Source of the DNA: a virus
Length of the DNA stretch: 48,643 nt
IMG/VR virus record: IMGVR_UViG_3300026531_000004
Coordinates: 1 to 48,643 of that record
Reading direction: 5' to 3' (one strand)
Both the position numbers and the translations under genes were made by a program. This document shows, piece after piece, positions 19,319-48,643 of this stretch. Below the pieces are notes generated by a model. That model was not told where the DNA came from. It was given only the letters and a program-made list of their open reading frames with translations, and searched no databases. Position 1 is the first letter of the stretch, and the number at the start of each line of letters is the position of its first letter.

Positions 19319-19366
19319 ATTTATGTTTGCCTAAAATAAGCATTCATACTTTGAGTATATGCGCAT

Positions 19367-19411
19367 ATTCCGCTATAAGGCATAGTATAACATACCCCAA
19401 TATAGCGGAAT
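19367..19411. repeat. Nested palindromic element A (ATTCCGC...GCGGAAT)
   Basis: Arms ATTCCGCTATA and TATAGCGGAAT (11 bp) enclose a partly palindromic core. Its reverse complement shares TACTATGCCTTA with elements D and E. It is flanked on the left by TATGCGCATA, as is element E on its right. It separates the lysis and nucleotide-supply modules. Confidence 0.75.
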
Positions 19412-35527: not shown

Positions 35528-35542
35528 ACAAAAGGAGAGATG

Positions 35543-36097
35543 ATGTTAGTCAGAAAACAATTTAAATTCGAAGCAGCACACACATTAATATCTGCTTATT
35601 CAGAAAATTGTGTAAGTTCTATTCACGGCCATTCTTACTTGGTAGAAGTGATCCTAGAAGGAGAACCTACCTCCGCAGACGGCATGGTGGTAGATTTCAG
35701 TTATGTTAAAGCACTTATAGGAGCGTTTATAAATGCTTGGGATCACGCTATGGTCATAGCCGCAGCCGACCCGGTCAAAGAAGATTTACTTAAAATAATG
35801 AATAAATACAACATGAGATATATCGTCACGCCATTCAATCCAACAGCGGAAGAAATGTCTATATACTTCAGTGCTGTAATCGGAGATGTAATTACTAGGG
35901 CGAGCGCCGTACAATATAGTTTACATTCTGTCAGAGTGCACGAAACGACAACCGGCTGGGCCGAAACTGGTCCTGTAGCTTGGACTAAGGAAGATCTACT
36001 ATCTGTTCGATTTAACCATTTCGACCTTAACAGATTAATCGATGCCGCTTACACAGTGCCATCTTATACTATTACACAAAAACACGAGGTACAGTAA
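35543..36097 (+). CDS. queD: 6-carboxy-tetrahydropterin synthase QueD
   Basis: QueD turns dihydroneopterin triphosphate into 6-carboxytetrahydropterin, step two of preQ0 synthesis. Zinc ligands are His13 (FEAAH) and His28/His30 (HGH). Catalytic Cys23 is separated from HGH by four residues; E. coli QueD has three, so the spacing is unusual. FNPTAEEM and HETTTGWAE follow as in the family. At 184 residues it is longer than the usual 120, with an extra C-terminal part. ATG 35543 is better spaced from AAAGGAG than ATG 35540. It ends in TAATG with queE. Confidence 0.85.
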   Translation: MLVRKQFKFEAAHTLISAYSENCVSSIHGHSYLVEVILEGEPTSADGMVVDFSYVKALIGAFINAWDHAMVIAAADPVKEDLLKIMNKYNMRYIVTPFNPTAEEMSIYFSAVIGDVITRASAVQYSLHSVRVHETTTGWAETGPVAWTKEDLLSVRFNHFDLNRLIDAAYTVPSYTITQKHEVQ

Positions 36098-36726
36098 TGG
36101 AGACATTATATAGCATAGTGGAGATGTTTTATTCTGTTCAAGGCGAAGGCAAATTGGTGGGTACACCTATGTTCTTTGTTAGGTTGTTTGGTTGTGACTT
36201 ATCTTGCGATTTCTGCGACGAGCCTAAACATAAAGATAGTAAACTGATTAAGCGCCTAACAGCAGATGATATAATAAATGAGGCCAAATTAACTAATACT
36301 GAATGGGTGTGCGTTACTGGTGGTGAGCCATCACTACGCCCTATTAACCACTTAATTGGTAAGCTGCAAGACGCAGGACTTAAAGTAGCTGTGGAGAGCA
36401 ACGGATTTAGACCTGGTAATATAGAACGAGCAGATTTCTTAACATTATCACCTAAACACCCTACAAGGTTAACCAAGATCGGTGAGCGTAAATGGGATGA
36501 GGTTAAACTGCTTATATCTGATGAGGGCCTACATTTCCAGCTCAACGACAACGACCAAGCCACATTAGATGCTTTGTTTGAGATATCTGAAAGCGTATAT
36601 GTACAACCGATTAACGATGCTGATTCGTTGAATATAGATAATGCATTAGTGGCAGTGTCATTCGTTGAATCACATCCTGAGACAAGACTAAGTCTGCAGA
36701 TACACAAAATGATAGGAGTAGCTTAA
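36097..36726 (+). CDS. queE: 7-carboxy-7-deazaguanine synthase QueE (radical SAM)
   Basis: QueE rearranges 6-carboxytetrahydropterin to 7-carboxy-7-deazaguanine. The iron-sulfur motif is C33-x3-C37-x2-C40 (GCDLSCDFCD), VQGEG near the N-terminus and VTGGEPSL (about 72-79) are family hallmarks, and LSPKHP lies further on. The length of 209 residues is normal. It is coupled to queD upstream and to a small basic gene downstream by TAATG overlaps. A 189-residue antisense frame here is a shadow. Confidence 0.92.
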   Translation: METLYSIVEMFYSVQGEGKLVGTPMFFVRLFGCDLSCDFCDEPKHKDSKLIKRLTADDIINEAKLTNTEWVCVTGGEPSLRPINHLIGKLQDAGLKVAVESNGFRPGNIERADFLTLSPKHPTRLTKIGERKWDEVKLLISDEGLHFQLNDNDQATLDALFEISESVYVQPINDADSLNIDNALVAVSFVESHPETRLSLQIHKMIGVA

Positions 36727-36923
36727 TGTTCTGGTCTTTATCAATGTTTGGTTTGGATAATGGTATGACTGAGACATATCTAAAGAGAGTTACTAAGCAA
36801 GGTAAAGGTCGTAACCGTTTATCGTATAAACATTCGACACAGGTGAAGGGTGCACGCCACTCTTCCTTGCGTAGTCGTGGTAATCGATTAAAAACTAAAC
36901 TGAAAAAGAAAAACAAGAGATAA
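36726..36923 (+). CDS. Small very basic protein of unknown function
   Basis: The 65-residue protein is strongly basic in its last 45 residues (RSRGNRLKTKLKKKNKR), suggesting nucleic-acid binding. It starts at a TAATG overlap with queE, so it is translated with the modification enzymes. No family was recognised. It could bind DNA to help the transglycosylase, but nothing in the sequence proves that. Confidence 0.55.
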   Translation: MFWSLSMFGLDNGMTETYLKRVTKQGKGRNRLSYKHSTQVKGARHSSLRSRGNRLKTKLKKKNKR

Positions 36924-36960
36924 TTTATATTCAGAGATTAGCTTGCTTTTATAGTGTAGA

Positions 36961-36982
36961 TTCAGTTAAATTACGATATAAT
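36961..36982 (+). promoter_or_regulatory. Promoter inside the modification island (TTCAG-N11-TATAAT)
   Basis: TTCAG (36961-36965), 11 bases, TATAAT (36977-36982), then ATAGAATAAA. It is preceded by GTGTAGA, also found before the leftward promoter at 44318. It would drive the 37008 gene, dpdA and queC. Confidence 0.7.
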
Positions 36983-37007
36983 ATAGAATAAATAAAAAGG
37001 ACACTAT

Positions 37008-37196
37008 ATGAGAAGAAATGTTATAGTAGTGAGAAGCAGTGGCGTCATCGATTCAACGATCAGCCTGCTTTTCGCTTTAGTATTCTGGTCCGTGTTGTTT
37101 GTTGTTATGGCATCTAAACTTCACGACGCTAAACTTGCTATCGCCGCTGACACAAACACATCTAACGGCTCAACACACATTACATCAAAGGAATAA
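37008..37196 (+). CDS. Small single-pass membrane protein
   Basis: The 62-residue protein has one hydrophobic segment (ISLLFALVFWSVLFVVMA, about 18-35) after a basic N-terminus, and a polar Thr/Ser-rich C-terminus. It is the first gene behind the promoter at 36961 and lies 3 bases before the transglycosylase gene. The function is unknown. ATG 37008 is behind AAAAAGGACACTAT. Confidence 0.65.
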   Translation: MRRNVIVVRSSGVIDSTISLLFALVFWSVLFVVMASKLHDAKLAIAADTNTSNGSTHITSKE

Positions 37197-37199
37197 ATC

Positions 37200-38006
37200 A
37201 TGGAACCTATTAAATTAGCTCACATTGCACCGATTGAGCATATACTCAAAGCTGACAAACAAAGCGATATAGTTATGTGCCTGTATCACATGCTTGACAA
37301 TCCTAAGTATAAGGGATTAATGATGCTTGAAACTAAATATAAGATACTGGATAACAGTTATTATGAAAAGCATAAAGACGATGCGTTTATGGAACAGTTT
37401 AATAATACTTGCACATTTATACAATCGTTAATCGACGCCGCTTTAGAGATTAAAGCTAACTGTGTTGTGTTGCCCGATGGTATAATAACACCTGAATCAA
37501 TTGATATAGTACAGCAACATGACTTAGATGTAATGGTTGTACCTACAAACAAAGAACAGCTTAAAGAAGCTATAGTCAGTAAAGCCGACCTGATTGGCTT
37601 ATCTTTTATACACGCAGCTAATATAATTTCGTTGAATGTAGCTTTCAGAGAGAATATCCGCCCGTTGTTACTGAAGACGATTAAGTTAGCCGCTGCAGAA
37701 TTAACAGGATTAACCGGCTTGTGTGTCGATGATGTTTTGCGTAAGCGAATACACCTGCTGGGCTTGTGGTCGTATGACGAACTAATTAAGTGTGTACCAT
37801 ATACAGATATAGTTAACAGTTGCGACACCAGCACAGCTGTTTGGCTAGGCTTAAACGGTAAAGACGCCACAAAGATGAAAAATAAATTCTATAAAAAAGT
37901 TGATTTCACTTGCAATAAAGAATGGAATCTGTTATGTTCTTGGAACATGGGTTGTATGCGAGGCGTCACCAAAGCCGGCGCTTACCTTGTAAAGGATATG
38001 TCATGA
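37200..38006 (+). CDS. dpdA: Putative DNA 7-deazaguanine transglycosylase, phage DpdA family
   Basis: Phage DpdA proteins are TGT-like enzymes that swap guanine in DNA for a 7-deazaguanine base. In this 268-residue protein, KILDNSYYE (about 49-57) and EIKANCVVLPDGIITPESID (about 83-102) match the DN and P-D signatures of phage members, and SCDTSTAVWLG (about 210-220) matches the late DTS segment. The candidate catalytic acids are Asp51 and the Asp of LPDG. Neighbouring folE, queC, queD and queE support the assignment. The closing CSWNMGC pair of cysteines is unexplained. It ends in an ATGA overlap. Confidence 0.75.
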   Translation: MEPIKLAHIAPIEHILKADKQSDIVMCLYHMLDNPKYKGLMMLETKYKILDNSYYEKHKDDAFMEQFNNTCTFIQSLIDAALEIKANCVVLPDGIITPESIDIVQQHDLDVMVVPTNKEQLKEAIVSKADLIGLSFIHAANIISLNVAFRENIRPLLLKTIKLAAAELTGLTGLCVDDVLRKRIHLLGLWSYDELIKCVPYTDIVNSCDTSTAVWLGLNGKDATKMKNKFYKKVDFTCNKEWNLLCSWNMGCMRGVTKAGAYLVKDMS

Positions 38007-38182
38007 TTGCTTATGCTACAGTCGTATTAGTGGTAGTGGCTGGTGTATGGGCTATGGTATCTAAAGAGGGACCAGATGGTTCTGTTACTTATGACGACAC
38101 CTCAGAGGACCACCCTCAAGAAGGACAAGAGTATCTAGTTTGCCCTAAATGCGGTTCAGAGTATTGCGGTGGTTGCGATTAA
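38003..38182 (+). CDS. Small membrane protein with zinc-ribbon end
   Basis: The 59-residue protein has an N-terminal transmembrane segment (ATVVLVVVAGVWAMV, about 5-19), an acidic linker, and CPKCGSEYCGGC (about 47-58), a C-x2-C-x4-C-x2-C metal site. The start is ATG 38003 in an ATGA overlap with dpdA; an upstream in-frame start would lie inside dpdA. The function is unknown. Being locked between dpdA and queC, it may be part of the modification unit. Confidence 0.65.
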   Translation: MIAYATVVLVVVAGVWAMVSKEGPDGSVTYDDTSEDHPQEGQEYLVCPKCGSEYCGGCD

Positions 38183-38191
38183 CAAACTTTT

Positions 38192-38230
38192 TATGTACCT
38201 ACCCGCTTAAAGGCTAGGTGCATAGATGGG
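38192..38230 (+). promoter_or_regulatory. Hairpin with possible pseudoknot in the queC leader
   Basis: TATGTACCTA (38192-38201) pairs with TAGGTGCATA (38215-38224) over 10 positions with one G-T pair. CCC at the start of the loop (38202-38204) could pair with GGG (38228-38230), forming an H-type pseudoknot some 10 bases before the queC ribosome site. It does not match known preQ1 classes by eye; ligand control is speculation. Confidence 0.4.
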
Positions 38231-38263
38231 TTGTTATGCCCTAATCTAACTCAGGAGAGTAAA

Positions 38264-39007
38264 ATGAATAAAAATACATTAATGGTTATTAGCGGTGGCA
38301 TGGACAGTGTTGTATGCCTACATGCTCATAAAGATATTATAGGAGCCGCGGTGTCTTTCAATTATGGCAGTAACCACAACAATATAGAGATGCAATATGC
38401 GCGCTATCACTGTAAATTACTTAATATTCCGCATACAGTAATAGATTTAAGTACAGCAATGACGGAATTTAAATCTGCGCTATTAAGCGGAGCTGAAGCT
38501 ATACCGGAAGGACACTATGAAGATGAAAATATGAGACAGACAGTGGTACCTTTTAGAAATGGTATTATGTTATCTATGGCTGTCGGCCTGGCGGAGAGCA
38601 AAGACTTAGAGCAAGTTATGTTGGCCTCGCATGCCGGCGACCATGCTGTATATCCAGATTGTAGAGAAGACTTCAATGAAGCTTTTAGAAATGCGGCAAG
38701 ACTAGGTACCCACAACCACATCGATGTTGTCATGCCTTTTAGCTCGATCACTAAGAGAGACATCGCCACTATCGGAGCTGACTTAAATATTGATTGGTCA
38801 ACCACTTGGAGCTGTTATAAAGGCTCAACTGAGAATGTACTGGATGAAGAGGATGAGTTGCTACCTCTAGTGGATAGACCTCACCATTGTGGTAGATGCA
38901 GTACATGTGTTGAGCGTATTTGGGCTTTGAAAGATGTAATTGATGATACTATCTATGATGATGGTGACTTCGCCATCAACCTGTTAGAAGAGAGAGGAGA
39001 GTGGTAA
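38264..39007 (+). CDS. queC: preQ0 synthase QueC
   Basis: QueC converts 7-carboxy-7-deazaguanine to preQ0 using ATP and ammonia. The PP-loop SGGMDS is at residues 10-15, and the C-terminal zinc site is CYKGSTE followed by HCGRCSTC. At 247 residues it is standard QueC; the glutamine amidotransferase domain of the phage 9g Gat-QueC type is absent, so archaeosine-type product is not expected. ATG 38264 is behind CAGGAGAGTAAA; starts at 38231 lack a site. It overlaps the MazG-like gene by TAATG. Confidence 0.92.
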   Translation: MNKNTLMVISGGMDSVVCLHAHKDIIGAAVSFNYGSNHNNIEMQYARYHCKLLNIPHTVIDLSTAMTEFKSALLSGAEAIPEGHYEDENMRQTVVPFRNGIMLSMAVGLAESKDLEQVMLASHAGDHAVYPDCREDFNEAFRNAARLGTHNHIDVVMPFSSITKRDIATIGADLNIDWSTTWSCYKGSTENVLDEEDELLPLVDRPHHCGRCSTCVERIWALKDVIDDTIYDDGDFAINLLEERGEW

Positions 39008-39294
39008 TGAGCGCAAATATAGGATTGGAAGCTCAAGAAGACTATGCAATCAGAACTTTGGCTACAGCTATGAAGTTCAAATTCACCGTACATAGATATA
39101 AAGGTGGATGGAAACATAAAAGCAACAAAGTTTTAGTTAAAGAAATGTATCGTGAAGTGGCAGAGCTTGAACAGGCCATCAGCAAAGACGAATTAAATCG
39201 TGAAGCGGTTATAGCTGAATGCGCTGATATAGCTAACTATTGTGCTATGTTAATAGATAATTTACAAGCTGGAGGATCAAAACATGCCAAATAA
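39007..39294 (+). CDS. MazG-like NTP pyrophosphohydrolase
   Basis: The 95-residue protein shows the all-alpha NTP-PPase pattern EMYREVAELEQAI (E-x3-E) followed by ECADIANY (E-x2-D), the four acidic metal ligands of MazG-type enzymes. It would trim a nucleotide pool, perhaps the dGTP or GTP-derived pool next to deazaguanine synthesis. It starts at TAATG on the queC stop and overlaps folE by 11 bases, placing it firmly in the island. Confidence 0.7.
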   Translation: MSANIGLEAQEDYAIRTLATAMKFKFTVHRYKGGWKHKSNKVLVKEMYREVAELEQAISKDELNREAVIAECADIANYCAMLIDNLQAGGSKHAK

Positions 39295-39958
39295 CCACAA
39301 AATAGACAACATAATCGCTGCATGTTCTTCTTCTAATTTCGATGGCCCTCTACTAGGCGCAGACACAATCACAGATGCTGACATTACCGACACAAGCATC
39401 TTAGTGACTGAGCAGCAAGCTATGGACGCTGTTAAGACACTTATGCAGTTTATAGGCGCTGATATGACTGACCCTAACTGCGTGGATACGCCTAAGAGGG
39501 TCATGAAGGCTTGGAGAGACTATTGGGGCGCTGGTTACAAGCAGCAGTCAAGCGATTTCTTGACTGTTTTTCCTAATGAGGGTTACGACCAAATGGTTGT
39601 TGTGGAGAATATCCCGGTGAACAGCACATGCTCTCATCATTTGGCCCCTATACATGGCACTGCTACAGTTGCGATTATACCGCGTCATGAACTCATTGGC
39701 CTCAGTAAATATGCTAGAATTGTCGATATGTTTGCGCGCAGACTTCAACTGCAAGAACGCTTAACACAGCAAATCGCAGATGAATTAGAGGATTTATTAT
39801 CTCCGGTTGGAGTCGCTGTCTGCATCAGAGCTGAGCACATGTGCATGAGCACTCGCGGAGTTAAAATTCACAATGCTGTTACGACCACAACCGCCTTAAC
39901 TGGGGCGTTTAAAAATAACCCTGAGACAAGAGCAGAGTTCATGGCTCTTATCAAATAA
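39284..39958 (+). CDS. folE: GTP cyclohydrolase I
   Basis: FolE opens the guanine ring of GTP to make dihydroneopterin triphosphate, the first step toward preQ0. Zinc ligands are Cys116 and His119 (TCSHHLAPIHG) and Cys187 (RAEHMCMSTRGV); QERLTQQIADEL is the conserved helix. The 224 residues include a longer, poorly conserved N-terminus. ATG 39284 lies behind GGAGGATCAAAAC. It closes the modification island. Confidence 0.93.
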   Translation: MPNNHKIDNIIAACSSSNFDGPLLGADTITDADITDTSILVTEQQAMDAVKTLMQFIGADMTDPNCVDTPKRVMKAWRDYWGAGYKQQSSDFLTVFPNEGYDQMVVVENIPVNSTCSHHLAPIHGTATVAIIPRHELIGLSKYARIVDMFARRLQLQERLTQQIADELEDLLSPVGVAVCIRAEHMCMSTRGVKIHNAVTTTTALTGAFKNNPETRAEFMALIK

Positions 39959-42867: not shown

Positions 42868-43229
42868 CCGGCTTAACCAGCCTGGTGTAAAATTTGGGAC
42901 CGCGCCATTCCCAATTTTCGGGGCGGGCCCGCCTAGATGACCCCGGACAACTAGACGAAATCAACCAGGTTATGAACAACATACAGACATATTAAACCCA
43001 ATAGAACAAGTGAAACTGGCCGTTACCAGATAAGAAATGAACAGGTGGATCCAGACAAAACGATTGATCGCCCCGGTCAGGCCCCGCGGCTTTTAGCCCA
43101 ACTATGAACAACATAAGGAAACATAGATCAGCGTAAAGCAACTATTCAGGGTAAAATTTGGGACCTCGCGATTCCCAAAATCTAGCCGGTGCCCGGCCCG
43201 ATCCATCGTTCCGATTCAGTTTTTCGGCA

Positions 43230-43370
43230 GATTCAGATAAGATTCAGATTCAGATAAGATTCAGATTCAGATAAGATTCAGATTCAGATAAGATTCAGAT
43301 TCAGATAAGATTCAGATTCAGATAAGATTCAGATTCAGATAAGATTCAGATTCAGATAAGATTCAGATAA
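43230..43370. repeat. 17-bp tandem array of GATTCAG words
   Basis: Seven exact copies of GATTCAGATTCAGATAA (starts 43241 to 43343, step 17) flanked by 11-base partial copies. In all 16 GATTCAG words. There are no unique spacers, so it is not a CRISPR array. GATTCAG also forms the upstream box of two promoters. Confidence 0.95.
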
Positions 43371-43860: not shown

Positions 43861-44226
43861 TTATTTTTTAGCCGCTGTTGTTGTTTTCAGTTTTTTCTCA
43901 AGTGCAGCTAACTTCCGCTGCAATGCTGCTTTTTCTTTTTCAGCTTTTTCTAACTTAGCTTTTTCATCTTTACTGAGTGTTTCTTTTAATGCTTCGATTT
44001 TATCTTTCTCTAAGGCTGCATTTATCTTATCAAATAATTTAAACACTCTAGATTGTGAAATCGAATAATTCTCTTTTCGCAAATCTTTTATTATTCTGCT
44101 GCGCGTAATCTGGCCGTCAGCTTTCATCGCTGCAACAATATAATCATACAGTTCTACTTCAGTTAAAGTTTTCTTATTTTTCATAGCCGCTTCAATCTCG
44201 CTTCGAAGTTTGTCTAAGTGTGTCAT
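43861..44226 (-). CDS. Putative small regulator: HTH-like module plus coiled coil
   Basis: The 121-residue protein has a helical N-terminal part with DGQITRSRIIKDLRKENYSI and SQSRVFKLFDKI (about 36-68), aligning with the HTH-like modules of the 29598 and 33401 genes, and a long C-terminal coiled coil (about 70-118, Lys/Glu/Ala). A coiled-coil dimer binding DNA is a fair guess. It is divergent from 44522, and its leader and first two codons are a mirror copy of that gene's leader. Confidence 0.6.
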   Translation of the reverse strand: MTHLDKLRSEIEAAMKNKKTLTEVELYDYIVAAMKADGQITRSRIIKDLRKENYSISQSRVFKLFDKINAALEKDKIEALKETLSKDEKAKLEKAEKEKAALQRKLAALEKKLKTTTAAKK

Positions 44227-44296
44227 GTCATTTTCCTTTAAGTTAATTTAATTTATATAAAGATTAAATCGTGATGTTTTATTCTTTATATAATAT

Positions 44297-44318
44297 ATTA
44301 TATCATAAATCGCCTGAA
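44297..44318 (-). promoter_or_regulatory. Leftward promoter of the 43861 gene (TTCAG-N11-TATAAT)
   Basis: Minus-strand TTCAG (44318-44314), 11 bases, TATAAT (44302-44297). GTGTAGA precedes TTCAG, as at the 36961 promoter. Confidence 0.7.
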
Positions 44319-44349
44319 TCTACACTTAAATATGCATCATTTTAATAAA

Positions 44350-44409
44350 TTTATCGATTTAATTTTTTTATCGTTCGGCGTGTTATCATAAAAAAATTAA
44401 ATCGATAAA
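44350..44409. repeat. Nested 22-bp inverted repeat
   Basis: 44350-44371 and 44388-44409 are perfect reverse complements (core ATCGATTTAATTTTTTTAT) with a 16-base loop containing TTCGGCG. It lies between the two divergent promoters, offset by 5-6 bases from the centre of the larger repeat, and could bind a shared regulator or form a cruciform. Confidence 0.9.
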
Positions 44410-44429
44410 CGGCTAATTTTCAGTGTGAT

Positions 44430-44451
44430 TTAAGCAACATTATGATATAAT
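44430..44451 (+). promoter_or_regulatory. Rightward promoter of the 44522 gene (TTAAG-N11-TATAAT)
   Basis: TTAAG (44430-44434), 11 bases, TATAAT (44446-44451), then ATTATATAAAG. It is the mirror partner of the leftward promoter at 44297. Confidence 0.7.
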
Positions 44452-44521
44452 ATATTATATAAAGAATAAAACATCACGATTTAATCTTTATATAAATTAA
44501 ATTAACTTAAAGGAAAATGAC

Positions 44522-44815
44522 ATGACACGATTAGATTTCACATCTGAAACATTATTGAAAGAGAGAGCGATCATTGAGGTTGAAAGATTAATTGCAGATA
44601 GATTAGATCAAACTGAAGATGAGATTCTTATTTATATCAATGATAAGCTTAGATATTCAGTTATAATTAACAACGATGAAACTTTTCTGTACGATTCATC
44701 TGAGAATGGCAAATTAATATTAATTGACACTTTCTTAAATATGGCTGAAGATCGTATTGCAAATATAATTTCAGATTATATTATAGATGATGAGATGGAG
44801 CTGAACGCTATATAG
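44522..44815 (+). CDS. Small acidic protein of unknown function
   Basis: The 97-residue protein is acidic and beta-alpha in pattern (ILIYINDKLRYSVIINNDETFLYDSSE in the middle). No family was recognised. It shares its promoter, leader and first codons, inverted, with the 43861 gene, so the pair should be expressed together. Acidic size and early-type promoter are compatible with a host-takeover or anti-defence protein, but this is only a guess. Confidence 0.65.
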   Translation: MTRLDFTSETLLKERAIIEVERLIADRLDQTEDEILIYINDKLRYSVIINNDETFLYDSSENGKLILIDTFLNMAEDRIANIISDYIIDDEMELNAI

Positions 44816-44866: not shown

Positions 44867-44956
44867 ATTAAATTATGAAAACGATTCAGATCGATTGAAG
44901 CGAAGCGGCAACGTCAGATTTGATTCAGGGTCAGTGAAATGTCAGGTTGGCGTCCC

Positions 44957-45351
44957 CGGCGTAACAAACCTAGAACTAAAAATTTATTCCGTTGAGTGTA
45001 AGAATCTTTTAAGTGATTTAGTTGTTAGTGATTAAGTGATTAAGTGATTTAGTTGTTAGTGATTAAGTGATTAAGTGATTTAGTTGTTAGTGATTAAGTG
45101 ATTAAGTTGTTAGCCTCGGCGTAACAAACCTAGAACTAAAAATTTATTCCGTTGAGTGTAAGAATCTTTTAAGTGATTTAGTTGTTAGCCTCGGCGTAAC
45201 AAACCTAGAACTAAAAATTTATTCCGTTGAGTGTAAGAATCTTTTAAGTGATTTAGTTGTTAGTGATTAAGTGATTAAGTGATTTAGTTGTTGGCCTCGG
45301 CGTAACAAACCCAGAACTAAAAATTTATTCCGTTGAGTGTAAGAGTCCGTT
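44957..45351. repeat. Composite repeat block: four 72-bp units with 31-bp inserts
   Basis: Units beginning CGGCGTAACAAACC start at 44957, 45117, 45192 and 45298 (the last is cut short). Each contains TTTATTCCGTTGAGTGTAAG. Copies of a 31-bp sub-repeat of TGATTAAG words follow unit 1 (two full plus a 23-bp form) and unit 3 (one). No gene is present. Confidence 0.9.
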
Positions 45352-45367
45352 AAGAAAGCCGCGACCT

Positions 45368-45697
45368 TTACAGATCGCAAATAAATTTATTCAGGTAAAC
45401 ACGCAACATATGTAGATCGCACACAACCTCTCTGCCCGTGTTGTATTTAACTGTAAAGTTAAGCGTAGGTAGCGAATGAACATGCAACATATTGAAGTAA
45501 TCAGCTTCGTTACAGAAATAGATCACATCCCCGTTACTATCGAGGAGAGTCTCAGCGCTTATCTCTATCAAGAGTGTTCGGTTACTAACAAACACACGAC
45601 GCTCAATCAGCAAAATAGGTATGATAGCCTCAGTTAAACACTGATTATCGTTATGCTGATCTACTGTGAACTTTAATACACGGTTATTATGTATCAT
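45368..45697 (-). CDS. Protein of unknown function, paralogue of the 43434 gene
   Basis: The 109-residue protein resembles the 43434 product over most of its length (LLI-x3-V-x-V, DSNGDVIYFCNEADYFN, and a similar helical end). It has its own leftward promoter. The gene runs toward the composite repeats and is separated from its paralogue by the repeat block and two other genes, suggesting duplication with later divergence. No function can be named. Confidence 0.65.
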   Translation of the reverse strand: MIHNNRVLKFTVDQHNDNQCLTEAIIPILLIERRVFVSNRTLLIEISAETLLDSNGDVIYFCNEADYFNMLHVHSLPTLNFTVKYNTGREVVCDLHMLRVYLNKFICDL

Positions 45698-45824: not shown

Positions 45825-45844
45825 ATAGAAAGCAAAAATAACAT

Positions 45845-45888
45845 ATTCCGCTAATGCAGGTATAGAATACTATACCTCAAAGCGGAAT
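45845..45888. repeat. Nested palindromic element E
   Basis: Arms ATTCCGCT and AGCGGAAT enclose GGTATAG-AATA-CTATACC, itself palindromic. It is followed by TATGCGCATATACTC, which also flanks element A on the other side (reverse orientation). It lies in the transcribed leader of the terminase genes. Confidence 0.8.
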
Positions 45889-45921
45889 ATGCGCATATAC
45901 TCTAAATATGAAGGTATAAAT

Positions 45922-48102: not shown

Positions 48103-48643
48103 ATGACATATGACGATATACCACTACACAGGGACTATATAGCGTTTCAGTCTCGGTGGTTACAGCTTAAACACTGTTTAGAGGGTGAAGAGGCTGTGAA
48201 GGCTGAGAGGGAGACATACCTACCGTATCCTGTTAGGGTGGATGATGAAGACAAAACAAGCAAAGAGTATCAGGCGATGTACGAGCTCTTTTTACAAGGC
48301 GCACATTTCGTCGAGTTTACCGCCGAGGCTGTAGAAGATTTGGTTTCATCGGCGTTTAGACGCCCATTGGAGATTAAGAAAGACGCTGAAGTAATTACCG
48401 AGATTGAGGAGCTTGACTATATAGATTTCTCTGATGTGGGTAAAGAGGTTGTAAGTAATGTTGGCGCGTATGGGCGGGTGTTTCTGCTTGTTGATTATCC
48501 TTCGGTGGAGACAGTACCAAACATGATAGAGGATAAAGATAACAAAGCATATATCACGCTCTATACACCATTAGATGTGCTTAACTGGAGAGAGACTAAG
48601 CGTTCAGGCAAGGTCGAGCTTGTTAGAGTTGTACTGCGCGAGA
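48103..48643 (+). CDS. Portal protein, N-terminal part (runs off the window, continues at base 1)
   Basis: The frame opens at ATG 48103 (MTYDDIPLHRDYIAFQSRWL) and stays open to the window end; bases 48500-48643 repeat 1-144, so the gene continues at base 1. The segment FVEFTAEAVEDLVSSAFRRP and the later NVGAYGRVFLLVDYP resemble the N-terminal clip and stem part of siphovirus portals. At the repeat, codon 4 is GAG here (Glu) and GCG at the start (Ala); the other mismatch is silent. Confidence 0.85.
   Translation, partial: MTYDDIPLHRDYIAFQSRWLQLKHCLEGEEAVKAERETYLPYPVRVDDEDKTSKEYQAMYELFLQGAHFVEFTAEAVEDLVSSAFRRPLEIKKDAEVITEIEELDYIDFSDVGKEVVSNVGAYGRVFLLVDYPSVETVPNMIEDKDNKAYITLYTPLDVLNWRETKRSGKVELVRVVLRE
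48500..48643. repeat. Terminal direct repeat with 1-144 (assembly overlap of a circular map)
   Basis: The last 144 bases equal the first 144 except at 48509 (A; C at 10) and 48633 (A; G at 134). The gene crossing the join stays in frame, so the sequence is a circular or circularly permuted genome of about 48.5 kb. Two mismatches hint at strain variation. Confidence 0.9.

Follow-up and report, generated by a model that had tools for sequence, protein, structure and literature searches.

A divergent pair of predicted host-type promoters in an uncultured phage genome, with leader regions probably made identical by recent copying

In Campylobacter jejuni, RpoD promoters are characterized by a -35 region of the TTTAAGTnTT type, a TGn element and a periodic signal of 10-11 nt (PMC3824568). 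For the C. jejuni phage NCTC12673, host promoters that had been predicted earlier were validated as a set by RNA-seq, and most transcription was found to start from two further A/T-rich motifs, the sequences of which were not printed (PMC6024767). A different process is known for imperfect inverted repeats, where template switching homogenises the arms and inverts the spacers (PMC8604942). The locus described here resembles both systems. Like the ‘extended -10’ promoters of NCTC12673 and the RpoD promoters of C. jejuni, its promoters follow the scheme TTAAG-N6-TTAAG-N10/11-TATAAT, often with TGnTATAAT, are A+T-rich and belong to a set dispersed over the genome; unlike those, they accept TTCAG besides TTAAG and form a near-mirror pair with identical transcribed leaders. 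As in quasipalindromes homogenised by template switching, a pre-existing imperfect inverted repeat seems to have been perfected over one tract, the position of which is lineage-specific. The quasipalindrome cases that we found in the literature came from E. coli or yeast, whereas the tract reported here comprises 89 bp and extends over promoter, leader and start codons.

The window, i.e. the whole stretch of DNA that was analysed, is an IMG/VR virus record of 48,643 nt, representing the genome of an uncultured tailed phage with genes for terminase, major capsid protein and a family-A DNA polymerase, among further genes typical of tailed phages. According to Pfam, ThyX and a B12-type ribonucleotide reductase are encoded as well, and 7-deazaguanine genes are present (QueC, PTPS/QueD, GTP cyclohydrolase I and a radical-SAM protein consistent with QueE). 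About 86% of the genome is coding. The ends of the record (1-144 and 48500-48643) form a direct repeat of 144 nt with 2 mismatches, reflecting either strain variation where the ends meet or minor errors in a circular assembly that is close to complete; because of this overlap the record is probably near complete. Named-phage relatives of the terminase reach at most about 43% identity, and the close relatives are all uncultured, namely L001 (terminase 91%, 26 kb, with the locus outside its span), L009 (72%, 47.8 kb) and L010 (51%). Among the relatives searched, L009 alone carries the locus. The arm sequence occurred in no other viral contig searched, the -10/initial segment was matched among viral contigs in the L009 record alone, and searching phages for distantly related DNA with the region as query returned no match.

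The locus consists of the following features:

43861-44226, minus strand: open reading frame of a basic HTH-like protein (121 aa, pI 9.7), predicted to be served by the left promoter
44220-44308, minus strand: left perfect arm with -10 box, 5' leader, ribosome binding site and first codons of the HTH gene
44253-44293, minus strand: left leader hairpin with an 11-bp outer stem (MFE -9.4 kcal/mol, z -4.0; 1 of 200 shuffles as stable)
44297-44302, minus strand: left -10 box TATAAT with extended -10 TGn, assigned by sequence
44314-44329, minus strand: left box pair TTAAG-N6-TTCAG outside the arm, fitting TTMAG-N6-TTMAG-N11-TATAAT
44350-44409, no strand: inner 22-bp repeats, A-rich upstream segments of both promoters, offset by 11 nt from the symmetry of the outer arms
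44419-44434, plus strand: right box pair TTCAG-N6-TTAAG outside the arm, fitting the same pattern
44440-44528, plus strand: right perfect arm with -10 box, leader, ribosome binding site and first codons of the acidic-protein gene
44446-44451, plus strand: right -10 box TATAAT with extended -10 TGn, assigned by sequence
44455-44495, plus strand: right leader hairpin, identical to the left one in sequence
44522-44815, plus strand: open reading frame of an acidic protein (97 aa, pI 4.06)

An earlier note on this DNA had described a perfect 89-bp inverted repeat around a 131-base centre, and this was borne out: the two arms are complementary at 89 of 89 positions and enclose 131 nt (44309-44439). 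A chance origin of such a match is unrealistic, the per-base match probability being about 0.34 even at 80% A+T. Each arm covers TATAAT, the leader, AAGGA and ATGACAC (two codons plus one base), in line with the earlier statement that two divergent genes share -10 box, leader, ribosome site and first codons. The perfect arms are embedded in a wider imperfect repeat of 118 nt (44213-44330 and 44418-44535, 90%). The second perfect repeat reported for the centre is real (44350-44371 and 44388-44409, 22 of 22 positions, 16-nt centre), but rather than being a separate feature it belongs to the same mirror duplication, of which it forms the upstream part, displaced by 11 nt. Given this offset from the outer symmetry, the left unit has 11 nt more between A-rich segment and -10 box. 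Upstream of three promoters in L009 an A-rich block, GATAATAAAAAATACTCACGAT, is analogous to the inner repeats of the window. Searches with Rfam and ARAGORN gave no match.

As had also been claimed, the TTMAG boxes lie outside the arms and keep the same spacing, TTMAG-N11-TATAAT, at both promoters. This combination was detected at 7 sites genome-wide, including both locus promoters, compared to 0.18 expected in shuffles. TTMAG was found 7 times each at distances of 16 and 27 nt before TATAAT, whereas the background averaged 0.41 and did not exceed 3, the second TTMAG-like box thus being located 11 nt further upstream of the first. The catalogue of TTMAG-N6-TTMAG-N11-TATAAT comprises ten sites on both strands, all ten intergenic, which precede the capsid region, replication genes, terminase and three small genes near the locus, among others. 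The L009 record has seven sites of this kind, two of them being the promoters of its homologous divergent pair, and the offsets 16 and 27 recurred in L009 and other contigs. Judged from sequence, the boxes outside the arms are therefore part of a genome-wide promoter grammar and not merely diverged copies. None of the other divergent TTMAG promoter pairs among the loci examined is a mirror repeat.

When viral contigs were scanned with the full double-box pattern, many apparently unrelated phages matched, several of them repeatedly. Whole-record counts of the pattern were compared with those of the reversed pattern as control. A record of 135,041 nt, identified as Campylobacter phage NCTC12673 by a 100% match, contained 16 copies versus 1 reversed control. 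Records in the range of 133-183 kb yielded 19 versus 1, 39 versus 2 and 42 versus 1 (the latter two in records of 176 and 183 kb), environmental contigs 19 versus 0, 13 versus 1 and 41 versus 0, and two enterobacterial phages had no copies at all in their whole records. Moreover, in the examined part of GU296433 (NCTC12673) six promoters are annotated as ‘extended -10’, and five of them have TTAAG-N6-TTAAG-N10/11-TATAAT, which ties the grammar to promoters annotated for a C. jejuni phage that has been cultured. In host genomes, the pattern was counted 98 versus 64 times in five Campylobacterota and 137 versus 153 times in eight genomes of other phyla (p 0.008), a weak enrichment in a rough test, as these genomes were chosen from pattern hits. 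A 42.7-kb record (L114/L128, IMGVR_UViG_3300026484_000250) contains 19 copies of TTAAG-N11-TATAAT on one strand and would be well suited for motif refinement.

Both locus promoters combine a TATAAT -10 box with TTAAG-type boxes 16 and 27 nt upstream and take an intergenic position directly upstream of genes, as do host-type (RpoD) promoters of Campylobacter phages. We conclude that the TTMAG boxes represent putative host-type promoter elements, strongly elaborated in phages. A phage-specific activator acting on these boxes was also considered and set aside, because they are shared by apparently unrelated phages. Judged solely by promoter type, the host probably belongs to the Campylobacterota, since NCTC12673 uses the same grammar. 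TTMAG-N6-TTMAG-N11-TATAAT would thus provide a compact, testable marker for Campylobacterota phages, including uncultured ones whose host is otherwise unknown.

A 41-nt hairpin is located at the predicted mRNA start and is identical in both predicted transcripts. The leader at the third L009 promoter contains a hairpin that is shorter but shares the outer stem (AUAUAAAG/CUUUAUAU); its z score of -1.85 is not significant alone. Hairpins at the 5' terminus commonly slow 5'-end-dependent mRNA decay, and the leader hairpin may have such a role here. Elsewhere in the window, a very stable leader hairpin (45842-45891, z -6.45) lies downstream of the promoter before the terminase genes, and an inverted copy of this region (85%) is present 26 kb away at 19343-19396.

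With respect to the proteins, the proposed opposition of an HTH/coiled-coil protein and an acidic partner is supported by the pI values (9.7 versus 4.06) and by fold prediction. The model of the 121-aa protein (AF2 pLDDT 84, from a 2-sequence alignment) predicts an HTH-like domain at about residues 18-80, followed by a long C-terminal helix. Its structural matches were mostly DNA-binding HTH domains, with Z up to 7.2, which is below the trust level of the tool, and the structure searches gave no confident family. A homolog is encoded in L009 (46% identity over 114 aa, E 5e-31); no relatives were found in the phage and plasmid records or species genomes searched, and single-protein scans of viral contigs revealed no relative of either the HTH or the acidic protein. 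The latter had no family match and no NCBIfam match above cut-off, and a structure search with its low-confidence model (pLDDT 63) gave no match. A common paralog family of small acidic proteins received no support from the alignment.

Residues 9-70 of the HTH protein matched weakly the C-terminus of DpdC, a component of the dpd system for DNA 7-deazaguanine modification (E 1.2e-6). When the isolated HTH domains of the window and L009 proteins were compared with the C-terminal 60 residues of two DpdC profiles, values of 2.4e-7 and 5.5e-5 were obtained. The likeness is confined to profile positions 255-316 of 319: unlike in full-length DpdC, the remainder is absent, and a coiled coil follows in the 43861-44226 protein. 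Its HTH part is possibly a stand-alone version of the DpdC C-terminal domain in a phage with preQ0 genes. Because QueC is encoded in both the window phage and L009, a link of the HTH protein to DNA 7-deazaguanine modification appears possible. A complete-looking preQ0 pathway (QueD-, QueE-, QueC- and FolE-like) extends over 35540-39958. Among these genes, the protein encoded at 37200-38006 has no Pfam or PHROG match and a homolog in L009; by its position and resemblance, it may be a divergent DpdA-type enzyme.

The corresponding locus of L009 also comprises an HTH gene, a divergent gene and inverted promoter arms (118 nt at 84%). Since this pair stands beside a homologous HTH gene, the divergent promoters predate the split between the window phage and L009; the right-hand genes of the two phages have no similarity. 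The arms of L009 are similar upstream of the -10 box, those of the window downstream of it. In an ungapped comparison by segments, which lowers the upstream score of the window, its left and right sides agreed at 10 of 47 positions upstream of the boxes, at 17 of 27 across the boxes and at 27 of 27 plus 33 of 33 from the -10 box on. For L009 the respective values were 39/47, 21/27 and 24/27, followed by 7/33 in the leader. Thus, as judged with this one relative, arm identity is higher within than between genomes and the tract limits are lineage-specific, as in homogenised inverted repeats. Under a constant selective need, the protected bases should coincide in the two phages, and we regard the differing tracts as the likely trace of separate copying events. 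The idea that the flanks had diverged under conserved function holds in part. The L009 comparison, however, speaks for a recent origin of the 89-bp identity, the inner promoter/leader having been copied, and not for a gradual decay of the flanks.

Over the 27 nt from the -10 box, the window arms agree with the left promoter of L009 at 26 positions and with the right one at 23. Furthermore, the acidic protein begins with MTRLD (MTxLD), resembling T(K/H)LD, which is conserved in the HTH family. Copying most likely proceeded from the HTH side to the acidic side, a thin argument built on three sites and a few codons in one relative; the right promoter of L009 could be the derived one instead. A whole-unit inverted duplication in each lineage, as opposed to copying onto an existing pair, is hard to exclude. 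In L009, a perfect 84-bp direct repeat (699-782 and 2191-2274) is located upstream of small genes, which again suggests that non-coding DNA has been copied recently in phages of this group.

Altogether, the locus is probably an old divergent pair of host-type promoters of a Campylobacterota phage, the leaders of which were recently made identical by copying. In each promoter unit, an A-rich segment upstream would be followed by a pair of TTMAG boxes at 11-bp spacing, by TATAAT, by a leader with a 5'-terminal hairpin and by a Shine-Dalgarno sequence, and two such presumably strong units placed back-to-back would drive two small divergent genes. The -10/leader/start segment of one unit, most likely that of the HTH gene, would have been copied in inverted orientation onto the other unit, the two already forming imperfect inverted repeats between which template switching or gene conversion could take place; the 89-bp tract is also compatible with ordinary gene conversion. 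Both genes should be transcribed by the host RNA polymerase, and the same hairpin leader on both mRNAs may confer similar 5'-end stability and translation. Equal expression, which the earlier note considered guaranteed by the arrangement, does not follow, because upstream boxes and flanks differ between the sides. The inverted repeat resembles not so much a genetic switch as a promoter pair of ordinary components in an unusual condition, apparently recorded soon after one promoter and leader had been copied to the adjacent gene. More speculatively, and in our view rather doubtful, the pair may act as a self-correcting cassette, in which replication repeatedly copies one promoter/leader over the other, with different tracts in different phages. 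If so, it would spread a regulatory unit from gene to gene and keep it uniform, which would amount to concerted evolution of promoters.

Unlikely, though backed by several observations, is a regulator with a two-sided operator, in which selection keeps the arms identical because arms and leaders contain symmetric binding sites for the HTH protein or a different factor. A DNA-binding-like protein is encoded at the edge of the repeat, four of the five copies of CGATTTAAT in the window are distributed over the two arms and the two inner repeats, and the equivalent position in L009 is occupied by a 23-bp array with five copies. However, selection for sites would not hold all 89 bases, hairpin loop included, and the matching part is elsewhere in L009. 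An extrudable cruciform acting in replication origin or packaging, in an A+T-rich, repeat-rich region between replication genes and terminase, is improbable: local GC is at the genome minimum (31.5%), and tandem arrays flank the locus (43228-43368 and 45009-45292) and occur in the corresponding region of L009, but no turning point of GC skew was found at the locus, and promoters, leaders and start codons fully explain the arms.

An assembly artefact, i.e. merely similar arms collapsed to one sequence or a false fold-back of the contig, would fit a single metagenomic contig, a repeat of 89 nt near common k-mer lengths and the 2 mismatches in the contig-end overlap. This is improbable, as the arms lead into different genes and different upstream sequence and an independent contig contains a homologous divergent pair; the layout is thus real even if the perfect identity, which assembly might have sharpened, were not. 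Very improbable is the invertible switch also proposed earlier, in which arm recombination flips the 131-nt centre and alters expression: perfect inverted repeats around promoter upstream elements give the geometry of a phase-variable promoter, as in fim-type switches, but unlike in those no serine or tyrosine recombinase was recognised (Pfam on the larger ORFs, short unscanned ORFs leaving a small residual doubt), and either orientation keeps TTMAG-N11-TATAAT at both -10 boxes and hence both promoters intact, so that neither an OFF state nor orientation-dependent expression is expected. Passive inversion by homologous recombination or template switching is possible.

Several repeats were observed near the locus. 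At 43228-43368, eight tandem 17-bp copies of CAGATTCAGATAAGATT present TTCAG, without TATAAT, at alternating spacings of 11 and 6 nt, 11 nt being the spacing of the promoter boxes. A four-copy element around AACAAACCTAGAACTAAAAATTTATTCCG precedes the terminase genes (44954-45398) and is also present at the start of L001, and L009 has a similar array, TTAATTCACTCCGGGTTAAGACTAAG; the AACAAACCTAGAACTAAAAATTTATTCCG and TTAATTCACTCCGGGTTAAGACTAAG arrays are candidate packaging or origin repeats.
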